Below are positions 10,980 to 17,722 of a stretch of DNA of 51,663 nucleotides, in pieces. The stretch's first letter is position 1. Each line of letters opens with the position of its first letter. The stretch is taken from the NCBI GenBank assembly GCA_019192455.1, contig JAHCML010000006.1, forward strand, positions 72,940-124,602, in the 5' to 3' direction. This DNA is from Alphaproteobacteria bacterium SS10 (lineage in GTDB: Bacteria > Pseudomonadota > Alphaproteobacteria > TMED2). The notes under the pieces were generated by a model. That model was given only the letters and a program-made list of their open reading frames with translations. It had not been told where the DNA came from and ran no database searches. A program made the position numbers and the translations under genes.

Positions 10980-11603
10980 TTAACCAGGCCCTGGAACGGC
11001 GCTCTCATCGGGCAGGAAGTTCAGGCTATCGATTGCGATACCCTGAGGATACTGCTCGAGGGGGCGGCGGATAATACGGGCATGGGCAACCAGACCGCGG
11101 TCCAGGCTGCGGTCTGATGATTCCATCACCACCATCAGGGGAACGGCGACCCGCCATTGATAGGTCGCGGCCTCAACCCCCTTGCCGATAATCACAGGAT
11201 CGCCATTCAAACTTGGCGTGACCGTGAACCGTCCCGATTGCATCATCTGGACAACTTCCAACCGCTCCAATGTGTGGTTGAACAGGGTCCACCCGTCGGG
11301 GGTGAAGTACCCCTCCAAATCTGCCAGTTGGTTATGGAAGGTTCGGGCATCAAAGGTGACTGATGCCGCCATCACCTCTGCTGCGTAATCCAAAATGTAA
11401 TCGTCGTTATGGCCAGGTGCCGCCATGCGATCACGGCGCAAATCTTCAACATTTGGTGGGGGCGGTCCATAGATGCCGCCGCGCTGATGGATAACCATCG
11501 CGGCCACGCCCACGATGATTACGGTCACCAGAATGGTCAGCCCAACATAGAACTTACCATCCGTATTTTTGCGCTCTAACGGGTCGTCCATATCGCGGTC
11601 CAT
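10980..11603 (-). CDS. DotI/IcmL-family inner-membrane protein
   Basis: 207 residues from the ATG at 11603; a GTG at 11633 could add ten. One membrane helix lies near residues 20-40 ('FYVGLTILVTVIIVGVAAMV'), leaving the rest periplasmic. That domain follows the DotI/IcmL/TraM pattern: 'AAEVMAASVTFDARTF', then 'YFTPDGWTLFNHTL', 'GDPVIIGKGVEAATYQWRVAVPL', ending 'QGIAIDSLNFL'. In Legionella, DotI is part of the inner-membrane complex of the Dot/Icm type IVB secretion system. The next gene upstream is a second, more divergent copy. No other dot/icm gene is in the window. Family assignment is from remembered motif patterns. Confidence 0.72.
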   Translation of the reverse strand: MDRDMDDPLERKNTDGKFYVGLTILVTVIIVGVAAMVIHQRGGIYGPPPPNVEDLRRDRMAAPGHNDDYILDYAAEVMAASVTFDARTFHNQLADLEGYFTPDGWTLFNHTLERLEVVQMMQSGRFTVTPSLNGDPVIIGKGVEAATYQWRVAVPLMVVMESSDRSLDRGLVAHARIIRRPLEQYPQGIAIDSLNFLPDESAVPGPG

Positions 11604-11680
11604 CGCAGAGTGTGGCAGCGCGTCAGACGCCACTGCGCAGGGTTATTGTACCATAGGCCGGTTAATAAGCCGGAACGCGC

Positions 11681-12232
11681 CTAACCAGAGTTAGCCGCCG
11701 TCTCTTCCCCGTTCACTATTCTGATGCCCCTAATTTTAATGCCCTGAAGCGCCTCAGGATCTGGGCTACGGGAGACATCAAACTGCAAACGGACTGGAAA
11801 GCTGATGCTGTTAGCCGCGAATTCGATCTTGAGCTCGGTGTTATGCTCAAACTGCCAAGAGTAGCGGCCATCTAGCACACCAAAGGCCACATATTCCGGC
11901 GGTTCATTCAGCGTGAATGAGAATTGGGCATTGGTGGATCGCAGATAATCGATTGCCCGGGCCTGCTGCAGGATGCCGACATAGTCGCGGTAACCATCGA
12001 TGGTGAACAGCGGCTCTGCTTCCTGCAGAACGATACTGAAATCCTGGGAGTTCATCGGCAAGCGTTGCTCAAGTACCGTTAGGAGCCATCGCATCACATT
12101 CACCGGCGGCCGGTCGACGACTGAGAAATCATCCCGAGAGTCGGGGACATCTTCCAAAAAAATGGGTGTCATGACGCCGACAACAATAATGAAGCCAACC
12201 ACCATGAGGCCGCGTTTTACCAGAACTGACAT
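11681..12232 (-). CDS. Second, divergent DotI/IcmL-like (DotJ-like?) membrane protein
   Basis: 183 residues. A signal-anchor helix spans about residues 8-25 ('GLMVVGFIIVVGVMTPIF'), followed by a periplasmic domain. Its layout parallels the neighbouring DotI-like protein: a helix ('MRWLLTVLEQRL'), 'EPLFTIDGYRDYVGIL' in place of the YFTxxGW segment, 'FGVLDGRYSWQFE' in place of the GxYxW strand, and a closing 'QGIKIRGIRI'. The cytoplasmic tail is very short, as in DotJ/IcmM, the shorter DotI homologue of the Legionella complex. It is first in a two-gene leftward unit, 77 nt before the chosen start of the DotI-like gene. Confidence 0.55.
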   Translation of the reverse strand: MSVLVKRGLMVVGFIIVVGVMTPIFLEDVPDSRDDFSVVDRPPVNVMRWLLTVLEQRLPMNSQDFSIVLQEAEPLFTIDGYRDYVGILQQARAIDYLRSTNAQFSFTLNEPPEYVAFGVLDGRYSWQFEHNTELKIEFAANSISFPVRLQFDVSRSPDPEALQGIKIRGIRIVNGEETAANSG

Positions 12233-12401: not shown

Positions 12402-14066
12402 TTACGAACCCGCATCATCAAAATCCATGCGAACAAGGTCACTGCGGGTTGAGAGCATCTGCATCAACCGGCGGTAATCGACCTTGGCGTCCTGATGCCG
12501 TTCCATCGGTAAACGGTCCACCACGACGATGCCGGAGATACCGGTCATACCAATCACTTCCTGCAAGCTATCCAGCTCAAGCGACGCCGCACTCTCAATC
12601 ACCAGAAGGCTGCGACCGTCATGATCGACGCAGGCAAGCTTACGGAGGCCAAGCTGGCATCGGGCCGCCGCCTCAACCGCCAGCGGATAGGTTGTGCCGA
12701 GCTCATCTTCCATCCTGGCCAGACAACGGCCAAGCAGCCATAGGCGGCCTTGAGGATCAAGGGTGCCAGCATCGCCAGTACGGTGCCAGATACGACCATC
12801 AACAAAGACTTTGGTCTCACTCTCAGCCCGGCCATTTACATAGTTGGTCACCATGTGATCACCGGTGACCAGGACCTCACCGACCTCACCGACCTCAAGC
12901 TGATAAGCGCGGAACTCTGCTTGTGAAAACGGCCCCATGGGCATGCCGTAATCATCCGGCAAGATGGCGACCTGAACCTCTGGGATCGGCTTACCCACCA
13001 GAACACCGCGACCGACGGAGGTGGCCAATCGGTCCGCCGCTATCGTATCGGCATAGGCCAGCTCAGCAATCGGCTCTACCTCTGGATGCCCGTAGACAAT
13101 ACGAAGGCTGCCGCCCTCCAGCTGTTGATCCAGCTTCTGGGCAATATCCGGATAAATCGGGCCGGTAACAATTAGATCATCGAGACCAAACACGGCGTCA
13201 TCGGCACTCTCAACCAGCTGCCCCGCAAGACCCGGGGAAACGACCATTCGAGAGATGTAACGATCACGTTTGTGGCGATCCAAGGTGCCCTCGAACGGTG
13301 TGTCGAGCGACGGCTTGGGCTGCTGTACGACACTTACTTGGGCCAAGGCTGCGAGGCTGGCCGCATCTTGCCGGCGAAGCATCACGGTGGGAATGCCAAG
13401 CGCCAGATTACTCAATCCAACTGAGGGCACATCTGTCGCAACAATAGAGGTCTTAAGCGGCGCCAGAACGGCAGACATGGCGCCATGCTGCTCCAGTATC
13501 TGGCCGTGGGTGCGAACCACGCCGACAGGCTGCCCCGTCGGACCTGGCACGAAGGAAACAATCGCTGGCTCTTCCAGGGATAAAGTCTCAGTAGCCGCCA
13601 CCTCCGACTGAAGTGCGCGACGCCAACTGGTACCCCGAAGGCCCCAGCCATTGGTTCGAAGCTTCGCCGGAACCTTGCGCAAATGCGGGTTCTTTGACTG
13701 ACGGCGAAGTGTGGTCGATGTTCCAATAACCGCAAGCGGCTTTAACTCTTGGCAAGCGGCACGCACCGTACTGCGTAGATTGTGGGGGTCGGCAAAGACG
13801 GCAATCGCGCCAATCCGGATCACCGCAAGTAGCGAAATGTAGAGCTGAAGAGAGAGCGGCTGAAGGATCAGAACCGCATCACCAGAACCAATGTCCTGGG
13901 CGCGCAACCATCCGGCAATAGCGGCGGATTGCTGATCGATTTCACCGATGCTGATCTGGCGCTGATGCTTACCATCTACTTCCAAAAGGGCGATGTCGGC
14001 ATCGTCACTAAACCCGCGCAGCAGCAGGTCCGCAGCATTTCGGATCCGCAAGTCAAAGAAGGTCAC
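12402..14066 (-). CDS. ANL-superfamily acyl-CoA-synthetase-like protein with degenerate P-loop
   Basis: 554 residues with the layout of an AMP-binding (ANL) enzyme. The N-terminal part is typical ('QSAAIAGWLRAQDIGSGDAVLIL'). The phosphate-binding A3 motif, normally TSGSTGxPKG, reads 'VPGPTGQPVGVVRTHG' (about residues 174-189): two Ser/Thr positions are Pro and the Lys is Val. Later motifs are better kept: 'YGHPEVEPIAEL' retains the Glu of YGxTE, 'IWHRTGDAGTLD' the TGD Asp, 'LWLLGRC' the hinge Arg region, and 'DAKVDYRRL' the C-terminal catalytic Lys. It may be an enzyme with altered ATP handling or a non-catalytic relative. It lies downstream of the TPP-enzyme gene, across a 256-nt gap with strong inverted repeats. 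Confidence 0.7.
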   Translation of the reverse strand: MTFFDLRIRNAADLLLRGFSDDADIALLEVDGKHQRQISIGEIDQQSAAIAGWLRAQDIGSGDAVLILQPLSLQLYISLLAVIRIGAIAVFADPHNLRSTVRAACQELKPLAVIGTSTTLRRQSKNPHLRKVPAKLRTNGWGLRGTSWRRALQSEVAATETLSLEEPAIVSFVPGPTGQPVGVVRTHGQILEQHGAMSAVLAPLKTSIVATDVPSVGLSNLALGIPTVMLRRQDAASLAALAQVSVVQQPKPSLDTPFEGTLDRHKRDRYISRMVVSPGLAGQLVESADDAVFGLDDLIVTGPIYPDIAQKLDQQLEGGSLRIVYGHPEVEPIAELAYADTIAADRLATSVGRGVLVGKPIPEVQVAILPDDYGMPMGPFSQAEFRAYQLEVGEVGEVLVTGDHMVTNYVNGRAESETKVFVDGRIWHRTGDAGTLDPQGRLWLLGRCLARMEDELGTTYPLAVEAAARCQLGLRKLACVDHDGRSLLVIESAASLELDSLQEVIGMTGISGIVVVDRLPMERHQDAKVDYRRLMQMLSTRSDLVRMDFDDAGS

Positions 14067-14184
14067 GCCGCCGCCTCTCGATCCACCATGCCTCTTGTCA
14101 AAACGCCTCTCGCTTAGAAGTCGCCCGACGCCACATAAAGCGGCTGATCAGGCCAATTCAAGACAGGCCACCGGTGTGATCGGT

Positions 14185-14251
14185 TGGTCATGCATTCCCC
14201 AAAACCATGACCATTGGCCCTCATCCCTCAATGCATATTGGGGCAATGGTC
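14185..14251 (-). other. Overlapping inverted repeats in the leader of the ANL gene
   Basis: Inside the 256-nt gap 14067-14322, the segment 14206-14220 can pair two ways. With 14185-14192 it forms an 8-bp perfect stem (TGGTCATG/CATGACCA). With 14241-14251 it forms an 11-bp stem with one bulge (GACCATTGgCCC/GGGCAATGGTC). The stems share bases and exclude each other. On the minus strand this lies downstream of the TPP-enzyme gene and about 120 nt before the ANL start. It could be an attenuator, a terminator with an alternative fold, or processed mRNA. No long U-run follows, so a classical terminator is not clear. Confidence 0.45.
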
Positions 14252-14322
14252 CGGGCTTGTCACCCGACTTCTTAGAATGCTCTCGACACTTAACCCGATA
14301 CCGCCTCAATTAGAACAGCAGA

Positions 14323-16056
14323 CTAGCGCTGCGCCCTAACGCCGGTGCCACGTATCTCTGACAGGGTTTGGCGGGTTGTGATCGCTTCCGGATCGATGAT
14401 CAACTCAAGCAAAGCCGCCTTGCCGCTGTCTTTTGCGGCCGCAAATGCCGGGGCAAAATCTTCGGTTCGCTCAACCTTCTGGCTGAACCAGCCATAGCTC
14501 TTGGCAAGGGCGACAAAGTCTGGGTTCACCAAGTCGGTGGCAATCACACGATCAGGATACTCGCGTTCCTGGTGCATGCGGATGGTTCCGTACATGCTGT
14601 TATTGACCACGATCAGGATCGGGGCCGCATCATATTGGCTGGCGGTACCAAGCTCGGCCATCGCCATCTGGAAGCAACCATCACCAACGACAGAGACTAC
14701 CGTCCGCTCAGGGTACACGATGCTGGCTGCAACGGCCGCCGGTACGCCGTACCCCATGGCACCGCTGGTCGGTGCGGCCTGGGTACGGAAGCCGCGATAC
14801 TGGAAGTGACGGTGCAGCCAGGCTGTCGAGTTGCCAGCGCCATTACAAACAATGGCATCCTCAGGCAGCACCTCATTCAGATGCGCAACCACCGTGGACA
14901 TGTTGAGCGGGCCTGGTGCATCCCGCTCAGCAATGTTTTCAAGATAATCCGCATGCCGTTCGGCGGCCCAATCTGACCAAACCGGATTGGCGACCGGGGC
15001 TTGGGCGGCCAGCGCTTCCGCCGCCAGGGACAGGCCACTTTGAATGGCAAGATCAGGCTGATAGACGCTGCCAAGTTCCATATCGCTTGGGTGGATATGG
15101 ATCATCGGCTGTTGGGATCGGGGTGGCACGATGCGGGAATAGCCGCCGGTGGTCATCTCGCCAAGGCGCGGCCCCATGACCAAAAGCAGATCACTCTCCA
15201 TCACCGCCTTACCAAGCTTCGGGTTGATGCCAATACCAACATCACCAGCGTAGTTCGGGTGACGGTTATCGAACCGGTCCTGTGCCCGGAAGCTGCAGCC
15301 AACTGGTAGTTTGTTTGCCTCGGCAAAGCGGGTGATCGCGGCGACGCCCGCGTCGTCCCAGCTCGGTCCGCCAAGGATAACAAAGGGCCGCTCCGCCTTG
15401 GCCAACATAGCCATCGCTTGTTCAATCTGGCTTGCCTGCGGTCCAGCCAGTGTGGTCGCGGCGGGCAGTACCGGGCGGCGTGGCTTGTCATCGTCACTCA
15501 GCGTGATCAAGTCGCTGGTCAGGTCCTCAGGCAAGGATAGCACCACCGGGCCCGGACGACCGGATTGGGCCGTGTGGAATGCCCGGGCCATGTACTCAGG
15601 AATCCGCTCAGCATGGTCGATTTCCGCCACCCATTTGGCGAGAGGCCCAAAGGCCGCTTTGTAATCGACCTCCTGGAACGCCTCACGGTCCTTCATCTTC
15701 CGCCCGACCTGGCCGATTAAGACGACCATTGGCGTACTATCCTGCATGGCAGTGTGAATGCCGATGCTGGCATGGGTAGCCCCCGGCCCCCGGGTGACCA
15801 TGCAAACCCCGGGCTTGCCGGTAAGCTTGCCATAGGCTTCAGCCATGTTGGCCGCGCCATTCTCAACCCGCGCGATGATGAAGCGCAGCTTATCCTCAAC
15901 CGGGTACATGGCGTCCAGGACGCCCAGATAGGACTCGCCAGGCACCCCAAAGATCGTGTCGACCCCATGGGTAATCAGCTGTTCAACAAGGATCTCGCCG
16001 CCTGTCGTGGTTTTGGCCGCCTGTGGGGGTGTCGGGGTCAGCATGGGCTTGGTCAT
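14323..16056 (-). CDS. Acetolactate-synthase-like thiamine-diphosphate enzyme
   Basis: 577 residues with three domains of the ALS/pyruvate-oxidase family. The N-terminal pyrimidine-binding domain has catalytic Glu65 ('ARVENGAANMAEAYG') and 'TRGPGATHASIGIHTA'. A central FAD-fold-like domain follows. The C-terminal TPP domain has 'SVVGDGCFQMAMAELGTA' and 'VVNNSMYGTIRMHQERE', the GDG-x-NN motif. 'GRKMKDREAFQEVDYKA' is typical of the large uncharacterised TPP subgroup rather than IlvB proper. No regulatory IlvH/IlvN subunit gene is adjacent, which argues against branched-chain biosynthesis. It begins 2 nt after the DUF6285 gene. The substrate is unknown; 2-keto acid decarboxylation or ligation is the family chemistry. 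Confidence 0.85.
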   Translation of the reverse strand: MTKPMLTPTPPQAAKTTTGGEILVEQLITHGVDTIFGVPGESYLGVLDAMYPVEDKLRFIIARVENGAANMAEAYGKLTGKPGVCMVTRGPGATHASIGIHTAMQDSTPMVVLIGQVGRKMKDREAFQEVDYKAAFGPLAKWVAEIDHAERIPEYMARAFHTAQSGRPGPVVLSLPEDLTSDLITLSDDDKPRRPVLPAATTLAGPQASQIEQAMAMLAKAERPFVILGGPSWDDAGVAAITRFAEANKLPVGCSFRAQDRFDNRHPNYAGDVGIGINPKLGKAVMESDLLLVMGPRLGEMTTGGYSRIVPPRSQQPMIHIHPSDMELGSVYQPDLAIQSGLSLAAEALAAQAPVANPVWSDWAAERHADYLENIAERDAPGPLNMSTVVAHLNEVLPEDAIVCNGAGNSTAWLHRHFQYRGFRTQAAPTSGAMGYGVPAAVAASIVYPERTVVSVVGDGCFQMAMAELGTASQYDAAPILIVVNNSMYGTIRMHQEREYPDRVIATDLVNPDFVALAKSYGWFSQKVERTEDFAPAFAAAKDSGKAALLELIIDPEAITTRQTLSEIRGTGVRAQR

Positions 16057-16058
16057 CC

Positions 16059-16490
16059 TTACGCGTCGGTCGAAGAAGAGTTGTCGTCATCCGCTTCATC
16101 GGGCTCAAACTGCTCAAGGAAGGCGGGATTTGTAATGGCTAGCTCAGCGGCCAGCAGTTCACGGAACTGGTCTGTAATGCCTGGGTGATGGTCAAAACGG
16201 CCACGGCGAATGGCATCGGCGACATTGGCCGCCAGAAGCGTTGCATCGGGCGGCCCACCCTGGTCGCTTCTAGGGATCGGCAAGGCAGCAGCGGCGGCCC
16301 ATTCACCATAAAGTGCAGCCTGTGCCCGGCGCACGGCGGGGTACTGCGCCTGATACCGGCGCACAATGGCCAAGGCATTGGCAGCCATGAGCGTTGGATA
16401 TCGGTTAATCGCTGGCGGCTTGTTCAGCACCTTCTCAAGCAAGGTGAGGCGCGCGAGCTCTAACAGGCGGTCGGTATCGATATGGATCAT
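16059..16490 (-). CDS. DUF6285-type protein, partner of the APH-like kinase
   Basis: 143 residues, mostly helical, soluble, with an acidic Asp/Ser-rich C-terminus (EPDEADDDNSSSTDA). Recognisable features are 'NRYPTLMAANALAIVRR' and 'NVADAIRRGRFD'. It resembles the small family (DUF6285, from memory) that usually accompanies the ACAD10/11-type phosphotransferase. It overlaps the upstream kinase gene by 4 nt (ATGA), consistent with a stoichiometric partner. Function not established. Confidence 0.7.
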   Translation of the reverse strand: MIHIDTDRLLELARLTLLEKVLNKPPAINRYPTLMAANALAIVRRYQAQYPAVRRAQAALYGEWAAAAALPIPRSDQGGPPDATLLAANVADAIRRGRFDHHPGITDQFRELLAAELAITNPAFLEQFEPDEADDDNSSSTDA

Positions 16491-17575
16491 GCGGCCGCCC
16501 CCGTAATCTCATCGATCTGATGGATCATGTCATAGGCCGTCTCAAGCGCGATTGGTCCGGTCAGCGCCAGTTCAAGCGACGCCTCACCACCTGCATCGGT
16601 TCGCTGCCCTTGCTGAAGCGCGATGATGCCCCAGCGGATAAGGGCCATAACCTCCCAATAGGGAACAAGATTAGGATCGATGCGGTGCGCCAGGCCAAGC
16701 TGCGCTGCCATCTCATCATAGCCAGCATAAAGTGCTTCACGACTGCCAAGACCACCTGCTTCCCGATCCCGGCGGCCAAAGCGCCAACAGCGGGCCATGA
16801 ACCAGCCCACATCTTCCATCGGCGCAGACCAGCTGGCGAACTCCCAATCCAGAATCGCAGAGAGTTGGGTGCCATCCACCAGATAGTTTCCGGTGCGGAA
16901 ATCAGCATGGACCAGGCAAGTCGGGGCATTCTCTGGCATATTCCGCTCAAGCCAGCGGAGCCCCCATTCAAGGGCTGGTTGCGGCTGATCAATCGCATCT
17001 AAGAAGCCACGGTAGAGAGTTAGGCGCGCGGCCAAGGCCGTGCTCGGTGGCACAGGCAAAAACTCCAGCCCTACCGCGAGTTCATGGTCCGGTGTGATCT
17101 GATGAAGCTTGGCCAATTCACCGCCCAGGCTGTGGACCAGTGCGTCGCCAGCATCACCGACGAGCTGGGGGTCACGAACCAGTTTGCGGCCCAGCGCTTC
17201 CCCCGCAACCTTGCCCATTAGGGCAAAGGGCTGGCCAATCACGCCACGATCAGCGCAACCTAGGACAGGCTCCGGCACGGTCACACCAGCTGCATGGGCA
17301 GCCTTTAAGACTTCAAATTCTTGTAATCGGTTGATGCTGACATCGACGGCAGACTGCGCATCGGTCCTGAGCACCAGATAGTGACTGCCAGGGTGTTCGC
17401 CGCCTGTCGCTTTAGCTTCAAACGCGATGTTCTGCTGGATCGCACCGCCACTCAGCGGCTCAATCCCTGATATCTCAACCCGAGTGGCGCCCCAGGCATC
17501 CACCAGATAGGCAGAGAGGGCCGCGCCCAGCCTGGCTGGGTCACGAAGCGTTTTGAATGCTTTATCGCCGCTCAT
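16487..17575 (-). CDS. APH-fold phosphotransferase (ACAD10/11-like kinase family)
   Basis: 362 residues from the ATG at 17575; a GTG at 17608 would add 11. Protein-kinase-like aminoglycoside-phosphotransferase fold: N-lobe 'IEPLSGGAIQQNIAFEA', catalytic loop 'CLVHADFRTGNYLVDG' (HxDxxxxN) and metal-binding 'LSAILDWEFASW' (DWE). Relatives fused to acyl-CoA dehydrogenases (ACAD10/11) phosphorylate 4-hydroxy-acyl-CoA during catabolism of hydroxylated fatty acids. A similar hydroxyacyl substrate is plausible here, but no dehydrogenase gene is adjacent. First gene of the kinase-DUF6285-TPP enzyme unit. No clear Shine-Dalgarno at either start. Confidence 0.83.
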   Translation of the reverse strand: MSGDKAFKTLRDPARLGAALSAYLVDAWGATRVEISGIEPLSGGAIQQNIAFEAKATGGEHPGSHYLVLRTDAQSAVDVSINRLQEFEVLKAAHAAGVTVPEPVLGCADRGVIGQPFALMGKVAGEALGRKLVRDPQLVGDAGDALVHSLGGELAKLHQITPDHELAVGLEFLPVPPSTALAARLTLYRGFLDAIDQPQPALEWGLRWLERNMPENAPTCLVHADFRTGNYLVDGTQLSAILDWEFASWSAPMEDVGWFMARCWRFGRRDREAGGLGSREALYAGYDEMAAQLGLAHRIDPNLVPYWEVMALIRWGIIALQQGQRTDAGGEASLELALTGPIALETAYDMIHQIDEITGAAA

Positions 17576-17722
17576 AAATCGCAATCGACAGTGTTTAGGG
17601 CCGGTCACCGCACTGGACAGTGCGAGTTCGTTATGGAACGTTACCGGCGATTTTTCCAGGGCTGCTATCGCCAGTGTGAGCGGTATCTTCTCATCGCGGC
17701 TCTGTTCCCCACCCTATAACCG

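Follow-up and report, generated by a model that had tools for sequence, protein, structure and literature searches.

Two tail-less DotI/IcmL-like proteins encoded apart from the type IVB secretion genes of an alphaproteobacterium

Why should an alphaproteobacterium encode two relatives of DotI/IcmL side by side, next to gap and a gene for an AMP-binding enzyme? The question is raised by a window of 51,663 nucleotides (the whole stretch of DNA that was analysed) from Alphaproteobacteria bacterium SS10, in which no other secretion gene besides these two was recognised. An earlier note on this DNA had described two adjacent leftward genes whose products, here P1 and P2, carry one helix each, and the open reading frames and predicted helices agree with that description:

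10980..11633, minus strand: P1, DotI/IcmL-like protein of 217 aa, predicted single-pass, GTG start
11478..11558, minus strand: predicted membrane helix of P1, residues 26-52 (AlphaFold/DSSP)
11022..11423, minus strand: periplasmic VirB8/NTF2-like domain of P1, residues 71-204 (PF11393 positions 43-176; Foldseek and VIA-align to 3WZ4/3WZ5)
11681..12232, minus strand: P2, divergent DotI/IcmL-like protein of 183 aa, ATG start
12158..12226, minus strand: predicted membrane/signal-anchor helix of P2, residues 3-25 (AlphaFold/DSSP)
11729..12100, minus strand: periplasmic VirB8/NTF2-like domain of P2, residues 45-168 (PF11393 positions 51-174; VIA-align Z 18.1 to 3WZ5)

Codons 11 and 15 of P1 are ATG and possible alternative starts, and its helix reaches a Kyte-Doolittle maximum of 2.85 from residue 30. 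In P2 a short signal-anchor (Kyte-Doolittle 2.53 from residue 8) leads straight into the periplasmic domain; the protein is almost devoid of an N-terminal tail, and the second gene is thus indeed shorter on the cytoplasmic side, as had been noted. Both proteins look membrane-anchored, with no signal-peptide cleavage site found by eye. A gap of 47 bp separates the two genes, the gap gene is convergent to P1, whose end lies 7 bp away, and the gene for the AMP-binding enzyme lies 169 bp upstream of P2. That gene opens a leftward run (12402-17608 of the window) which continues with a thiamine-pyrophosphate enzyme, a short DUF6285-like ORF and an aminoglycoside-phosphotransferase-like protein, these last three products being named by eye only.

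P1 and P2 are genuinely related to DotI, which is an inner-membrane component of type IVB secretion systems (T4BSS). The assignment to the DotI/IcmL/TraM family was borne out by HMM search, in which P1 scored 78.9 bits (E 4.3e-22) and P2 43.5 bits (E 3e-11) against Pfam PF11393 (T4BSS_DotI_IcmL), both passing its gathering cut-off of 27.7 bits. By the NCBIfam rule neither is a canonical DotI, since their scores against the DotI equivalog NF038072 (84.1 bits for P1, 34.8 for P2) fall below the 175-bit cut-off. Searches using sequence only matched both to the DotI crystal structure 3WZ4 (E 5.7e-13 for P1, 3.3e-6 for P2). The AlphaFold models, with mean pLDDT of 80.9 for P1 (above 90 across most of the domain) and 83.6 for P2, fit the DotI periplasmic domain in 3WZ4/3WZ5: in Foldseek P1 gave a TM-score to target of 0.90-0.93 with an rmsd of 1.2-1.3 Å, P2 gave 0.84-0.88 with an rmsd of about 2.1 Å (3.1 Å for one chain), and VIA-align to DotI structures gave Z 22.0 and 18.1, respectively, although the fold result depends in part on the family call because the input alignments consisted mostly of canonical DotI relatives, which favours a DotI fold; the sequence matches are independent of this. 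A search of a genome-contig collection with P1 returned no relative, and a search of a viral-contig collection with a DotI alignment returned none.

The earlier note had presented the pair as standing without a type IVB cluster, which holds for the window but not for the genome. Whole-genome searches found a T4BSS cluster on contig C3 (about 1.503-1.520 Mb) with its own canonical DotI, and we therefore rejected the reading of P1 and P2 as orphans. The cluster holds DotI, DotH, DotG, a DotF-like protein, DotN, a DotO-type protein, DotD, DotC and DotB. Round its DotI lie DotH, DotG (TrbI), DotD, DotC, a DotB-type ATPase, TcpQ, a secretin and PilO, and NCBIfam recognised DotN (137.7 bits, cut-off 100), weak DotF, weak TraQ and pilus proteins. 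The DotO call was made from place and size for a 1050-aa protein that has no Pfam or NCBIfam match; related clusters have strong matches to it at the equivalent position. At a second secretion site on C3 (0.70-0.71 Mb), 0.8 Mb off, lie DotA/TraY, matched in two pieces within one open frame, and a TraG/TraD-type coupling ATPase; a 374-aa neighbour at this site is a probable DotM, judged from position and N-terminus. PF11393 occurs three times in the genome (P1, P2 and the canonical DotI on C3), DotH once, on C3 beside that DotI, and P1/P2 are not adjacent to dotH/dotG. The machine is present, then, with its genes spread over at least two loci and P1/P2 at a third, and since DotA and the coupling ATPase lie so far from the main cluster, dispersal is usual in this genome. 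These loci support the first of the two alternatives that the earlier note had offered, namely that the secretion genes are scattered.

P1 and P2 differ from canonical DotI in lacking its N-terminal tail and linker. In a profile alignment, the columns of the DotI tail motif RNEFYRDGYR have an occupancy of 1.0 in canonical DotI and are empty in both P1 and P2, and the linker motif YFATTxDGRL is not conserved in either. In Legionella DotI, residues Y97 and Q102 are needed for secretion, with a weaker requirement for R98 (PMC4454188). When these ring positions were mapped by alignment (Legionella DotI numbering), the genome's own DotI was found to carry F/R/Q, nearly the Legionella set, P1 F/H/A and P2 F/S/Q; R98 and Q102 are together kept in neither P1 nor P2. 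Such partial keeping of the ring residues argues that the two proteins do not simply copy the contacts of DotI. The missing tail also overturns the earlier likening of P2 to DotJ/IcmM: DotJ is described as the conserved N-terminal region only (PMC4454188, PMC11338181), whereas P2 keeps the periplasmic domain without the tail, which is the reverse.

Dispersed proteins of this kind recur in relatives. Among named genomes, the canonical DotI of SS10 is closest to those of Micavibrio and of uncharacterised Alphaproteobacteria drafts, at 38-46% identity among the matches listed (80 loci). At least one extra PF11393 match away from the canonical copy was present in 46 of the 48 Micavibrio-type genomes; these extra copies match the family mostly from about position 31-54, as compared with 43 for P1 and 51 for P2, and in one profile their RNEFYRDGYR columns are empty while those of the canonical proteins are full. 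Of 42 dispersed proteins, 31 have an N-terminus that a rough pattern test marked as signal-peptide-like, but some of these N-termini are plainly membrane anchors, so that fewer than 31 are truly secreted. A UbiB-type kinase, COQ9, GapR and acetyl-CoA synthetase recur in the 23 dispersed-copy neighbourhoods that were read, which differ from the surroundings of P1/P2 with gap and the AMP-binding enzyme. In one Micavibrio genome (L197, 3861-11156), for example, the DotI-like gene lies beside COQ9, a UbiB-type kinase, a GapR-like gene and acetyl-CoA synthetase, an arrangement found in many relatives. All-against-all BLAST joined the AMP-binding enzyme of the window with the Micavibrio-type neighbour, and we discarded this as synteny: the neighbour is an acetyl-CoA synthetase with ACAS_N and AMP-binding_C, both of which Pfam did not find in the window enzyme, and the resemblance is one of superfamily only. 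The adjacent gene of 209-220 aa in Micavibrio-type loci was likewise rejected as a P2-like partner, because it is COQ9. Other arrangements were met within clusters: one alphaproteobacterial genome has four DotI-like genes in tandem right before DotH (L041, 8230-11149), and in genome G171 a 120-aa DotJ-shaped protein, matching profile positions 4-72 only, lies directly before DotI (L020, 816-1178).

Do such proteins occur where the machine occurs? In a class survey of 385 genomes, PF11393 was found in 16, of which 15 have DotH, the exception being an 84%-complete draft. In the order of genome G136 (142 genomes), PF11393 was found in 138 and DotH in 132 (93 of 98 high-quality genomes), and a type IVB system is close to universal in this order, the Micavibrionales, Micavibrio aeruginosavorus ARL-13 included. 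The genome paper of this epibiotic predator reportedly saw no sign of either type III or type IV secretion. Ten genomes of the order are DotH-negative (G436, G454, G465, G476, G484, G495, G533, G536, G545 and G571), and four of these (G454, G495, G533 and G536) also lack a canonical DotI, their PF11393 matches being weak and of the dispersed type only. We considered G533 as a natural case of T4BSS loss with the dispersed gene kept and rejected it, because most machine genes are present: the 756 kb that were read (about 41% of 1.855 Mb) hold DotO, DotN-type, DotB, DotC, DotD, three DotA-like proteins, DotL and DotM. The three DotA-like proteins stand in tandem (L243, 7501-16247) and measure about 920-1010 aa each. 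The end of contig C9 truncates a repeat-rich gene scored by a DotF-type profile, and DotI-DotH-DotG of this genome may sit in the assembly gap at the contig end.

The phylogenetic evidence on the origin of P1 and P2 points in more than one direction. A tree of the periplasmic domain placed both with the dispersed proteins of Micavibrionales (97/83), on a thin basis of 141 columns and 90 rows in which both are long branches. AU tests rejected neither a grouping of P1 and P2 alone (p 0.55) nor one that joins P1 to the canonical DotI of the genome (p 0.56), and the profile scores are split, P1 scoring slightly higher with the canonical profile (62.6 vs 55.3 with the dispersed) and P2 with the dispersed (45.8 vs 31.5 with the canonical). 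A recent local tandem duplication that gave rise to the pair was rejected, since the similarity between P1 and P2 amounts to only about 18 bits.

On balance we favour, with moderate confidence, the reading that P1 and P2 are tail-less accessory subunits of the VirB8 type that serve the organism's own T4BSS and are encoded in trans. Within T4BSS, DotI corresponds to VirB8 (PMC4454188). The R388 T4SS has 24 VirB8 in its arches and inner-membrane complex, four per asymmetric unit, with tails bundled on VirB4; one of these tails touches VirB4 sparsely, and the periplasmic domain of the fourth copy points outward (PMC9259494, PMC11294453). This sparse contact and outward-pointing domain make arch positions without a tail conceivable. 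The canonical DotI from the main cluster would then use its N-terminal tail to link the ring of periplasmic arches with the ATPase layer in the cytoplasm and, by analogy with the type IVA system, P1 and P2 would fill or decorate further positions of the ring that need no tail. The analysis itself supports the homology, the predicted fold, the absence of the tail, the scattered T4BSS and the recurrent dispersed tail-less paralogues in T4BSS-bearing relatives; physical incorporation of the two proteins, their stoichiometry and any effect on secretion are inferred. Several observations count against a role in the arches. P1 and P2 lie outside the secretion loci, with neighbours (gap and the AMP-binding enzyme) that suggest no link; neither keeps both R98 and Q102; many dispersed copies in Micavibrio-type genomes look like secreted rather than anchored proteins, which would be an unusual state for a subunit fixed in a ring; and four DotH-negative genomes have dispersed-type PF11393 matches, although the one that was read, G533, keeps most T4BSS genes.

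These same observations bear on other explanations. A DotI fold taken over for a periplasmic or envelope function independent of the machine, in line with the second alternative of the earlier note, for example as a small-molecule- or peptidoglycan-binding NTF2-like domain, would accord with the stable housekeeping neighbourhoods (UbiB, COQ9, GapR) and signal peptides of many Micavibrio-type copies, with the lack of conservation of ring residues R98, Q102 and W113 in dispersed copies, with the exported IcmL-like proteins in L. pneumophila culture supernatant (PMC12239567) and with the dispersed copy carried by the DotH-negative G454, G495 and G536. We nonetheless consider it unlikely, given that PF11393 and DotH almost always went together in the class survey and that the DotH-negative G533 keeps DotO, DotN-type, DotB, DotC, DotD, DotA, DotL and DotM matches.

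Replacement of DotJ, with P1/P2 taking over the stabilisation of canonical DotI that DotJ provides in Legionella, strikes us as quite improbable: none of the genes beside the DotI on C3 was recognised as DotJ-type, and related genomes have in-cluster DotI pairs, as in Coxiella (PMC11338181), yet DotJ consists of the N-terminal membrane region only, exactly the conserved region that P1 and P2 lack, and a DotJ-shaped protein does exist beside DotI elsewhere (L020). That the pair is what is left of a second T4BSS or conjugative element, otherwise mostly lost, seems very unlikely. DotI/TraM-type genes do occur on alphaproteobacterial and other plasmids, and identity between P1 and the canonical DotI of the genome is just 30%; however, the genome has one DotH, the window holds no other recognised secretion gene, both frames are intact with domains well formed in the AlphaFold models, the GC is 0.573 and 0.527 in the two genes and 0.578 in the window as a whole, the mutual similarity of P1 and P2 is as low as given above, and no plasmid match to P2 was found.

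A wider idea can be put forward tentatively, and we hold it to be somewhat doubtful: some T4BSS arches may be hetero-oligomers of a tailed canonical DotI and of tail-less, anchored or secreted paralogues encoded elsewhere, which would provide chemically different ring positions. Were this true, hetero-oligomeric arches would characterise this organism as well as the Micavibrio-type systems found in predatory Alphaproteobacteria. The recurrence of dispersed tail-less DotI copies suggests more kinds of arch subunit in some T4BSS than in the Legionella model, and these copies offer targets for knock-out by which the idea can be probed. Pseudomonas putida kills bacteria with a T4BSS (PMC9519443), which makes the T4BSS a candidate for prey attack in Micavibrio.

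How, then, do P1 and P2 compare with known systems? With DotI/IcmL of Legionella and TraM of R64 (PDB 3WZ4, 3WZ5 and 3WZ3) they share the single N-terminal helix, the periplasmic fold and PF11393, and they differ from these in lacking the tail and linker, in lying outside secretion loci, in scoring below the NCBIfam cut-off and in their incomplete ring residues. The VirB8/TrwG arch proteins of type IVA systems have the NTF2-like periplasmic domain in common with them (Z about 11-15), but carry a tail and are only about 10% identical. DotJ/IcmM is also a DotI paralogue in the same genome as DotI, of which it retains the N-terminal part only, so that P1 and P2 are its complement. The next closest fold after DotI and TraM is the IcmL-like lpg0120 of L. 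pneumophila (PDB 5CNL; Z 18.7 for P1, 16.3 for P2), likewise a DotI-fold paralogue additional to DotI, with about 20% identity to P1 and 10-13% to P2; we found no report of its function. Two IcmL-like proteins have been detected in L. pneumophila culture supernatants (PMC12239567) and dotI is duplicated in Coxiella (PMC11338181). Together with lpg0120, these cases mean that extra DotI-type proteins as such are already known. The dispersed proteins of Micavibrionales share with P1 and P2 a PF11393 match that mostly starts at about 31-54 and coexistence with an in-cluster canonical DotI, but are usually encoded by one gene beside COQ9 and often have a signal peptide. What is new is this tail-less dispersed class in Alphaproteobacteria, together with the P1/P2 pair.
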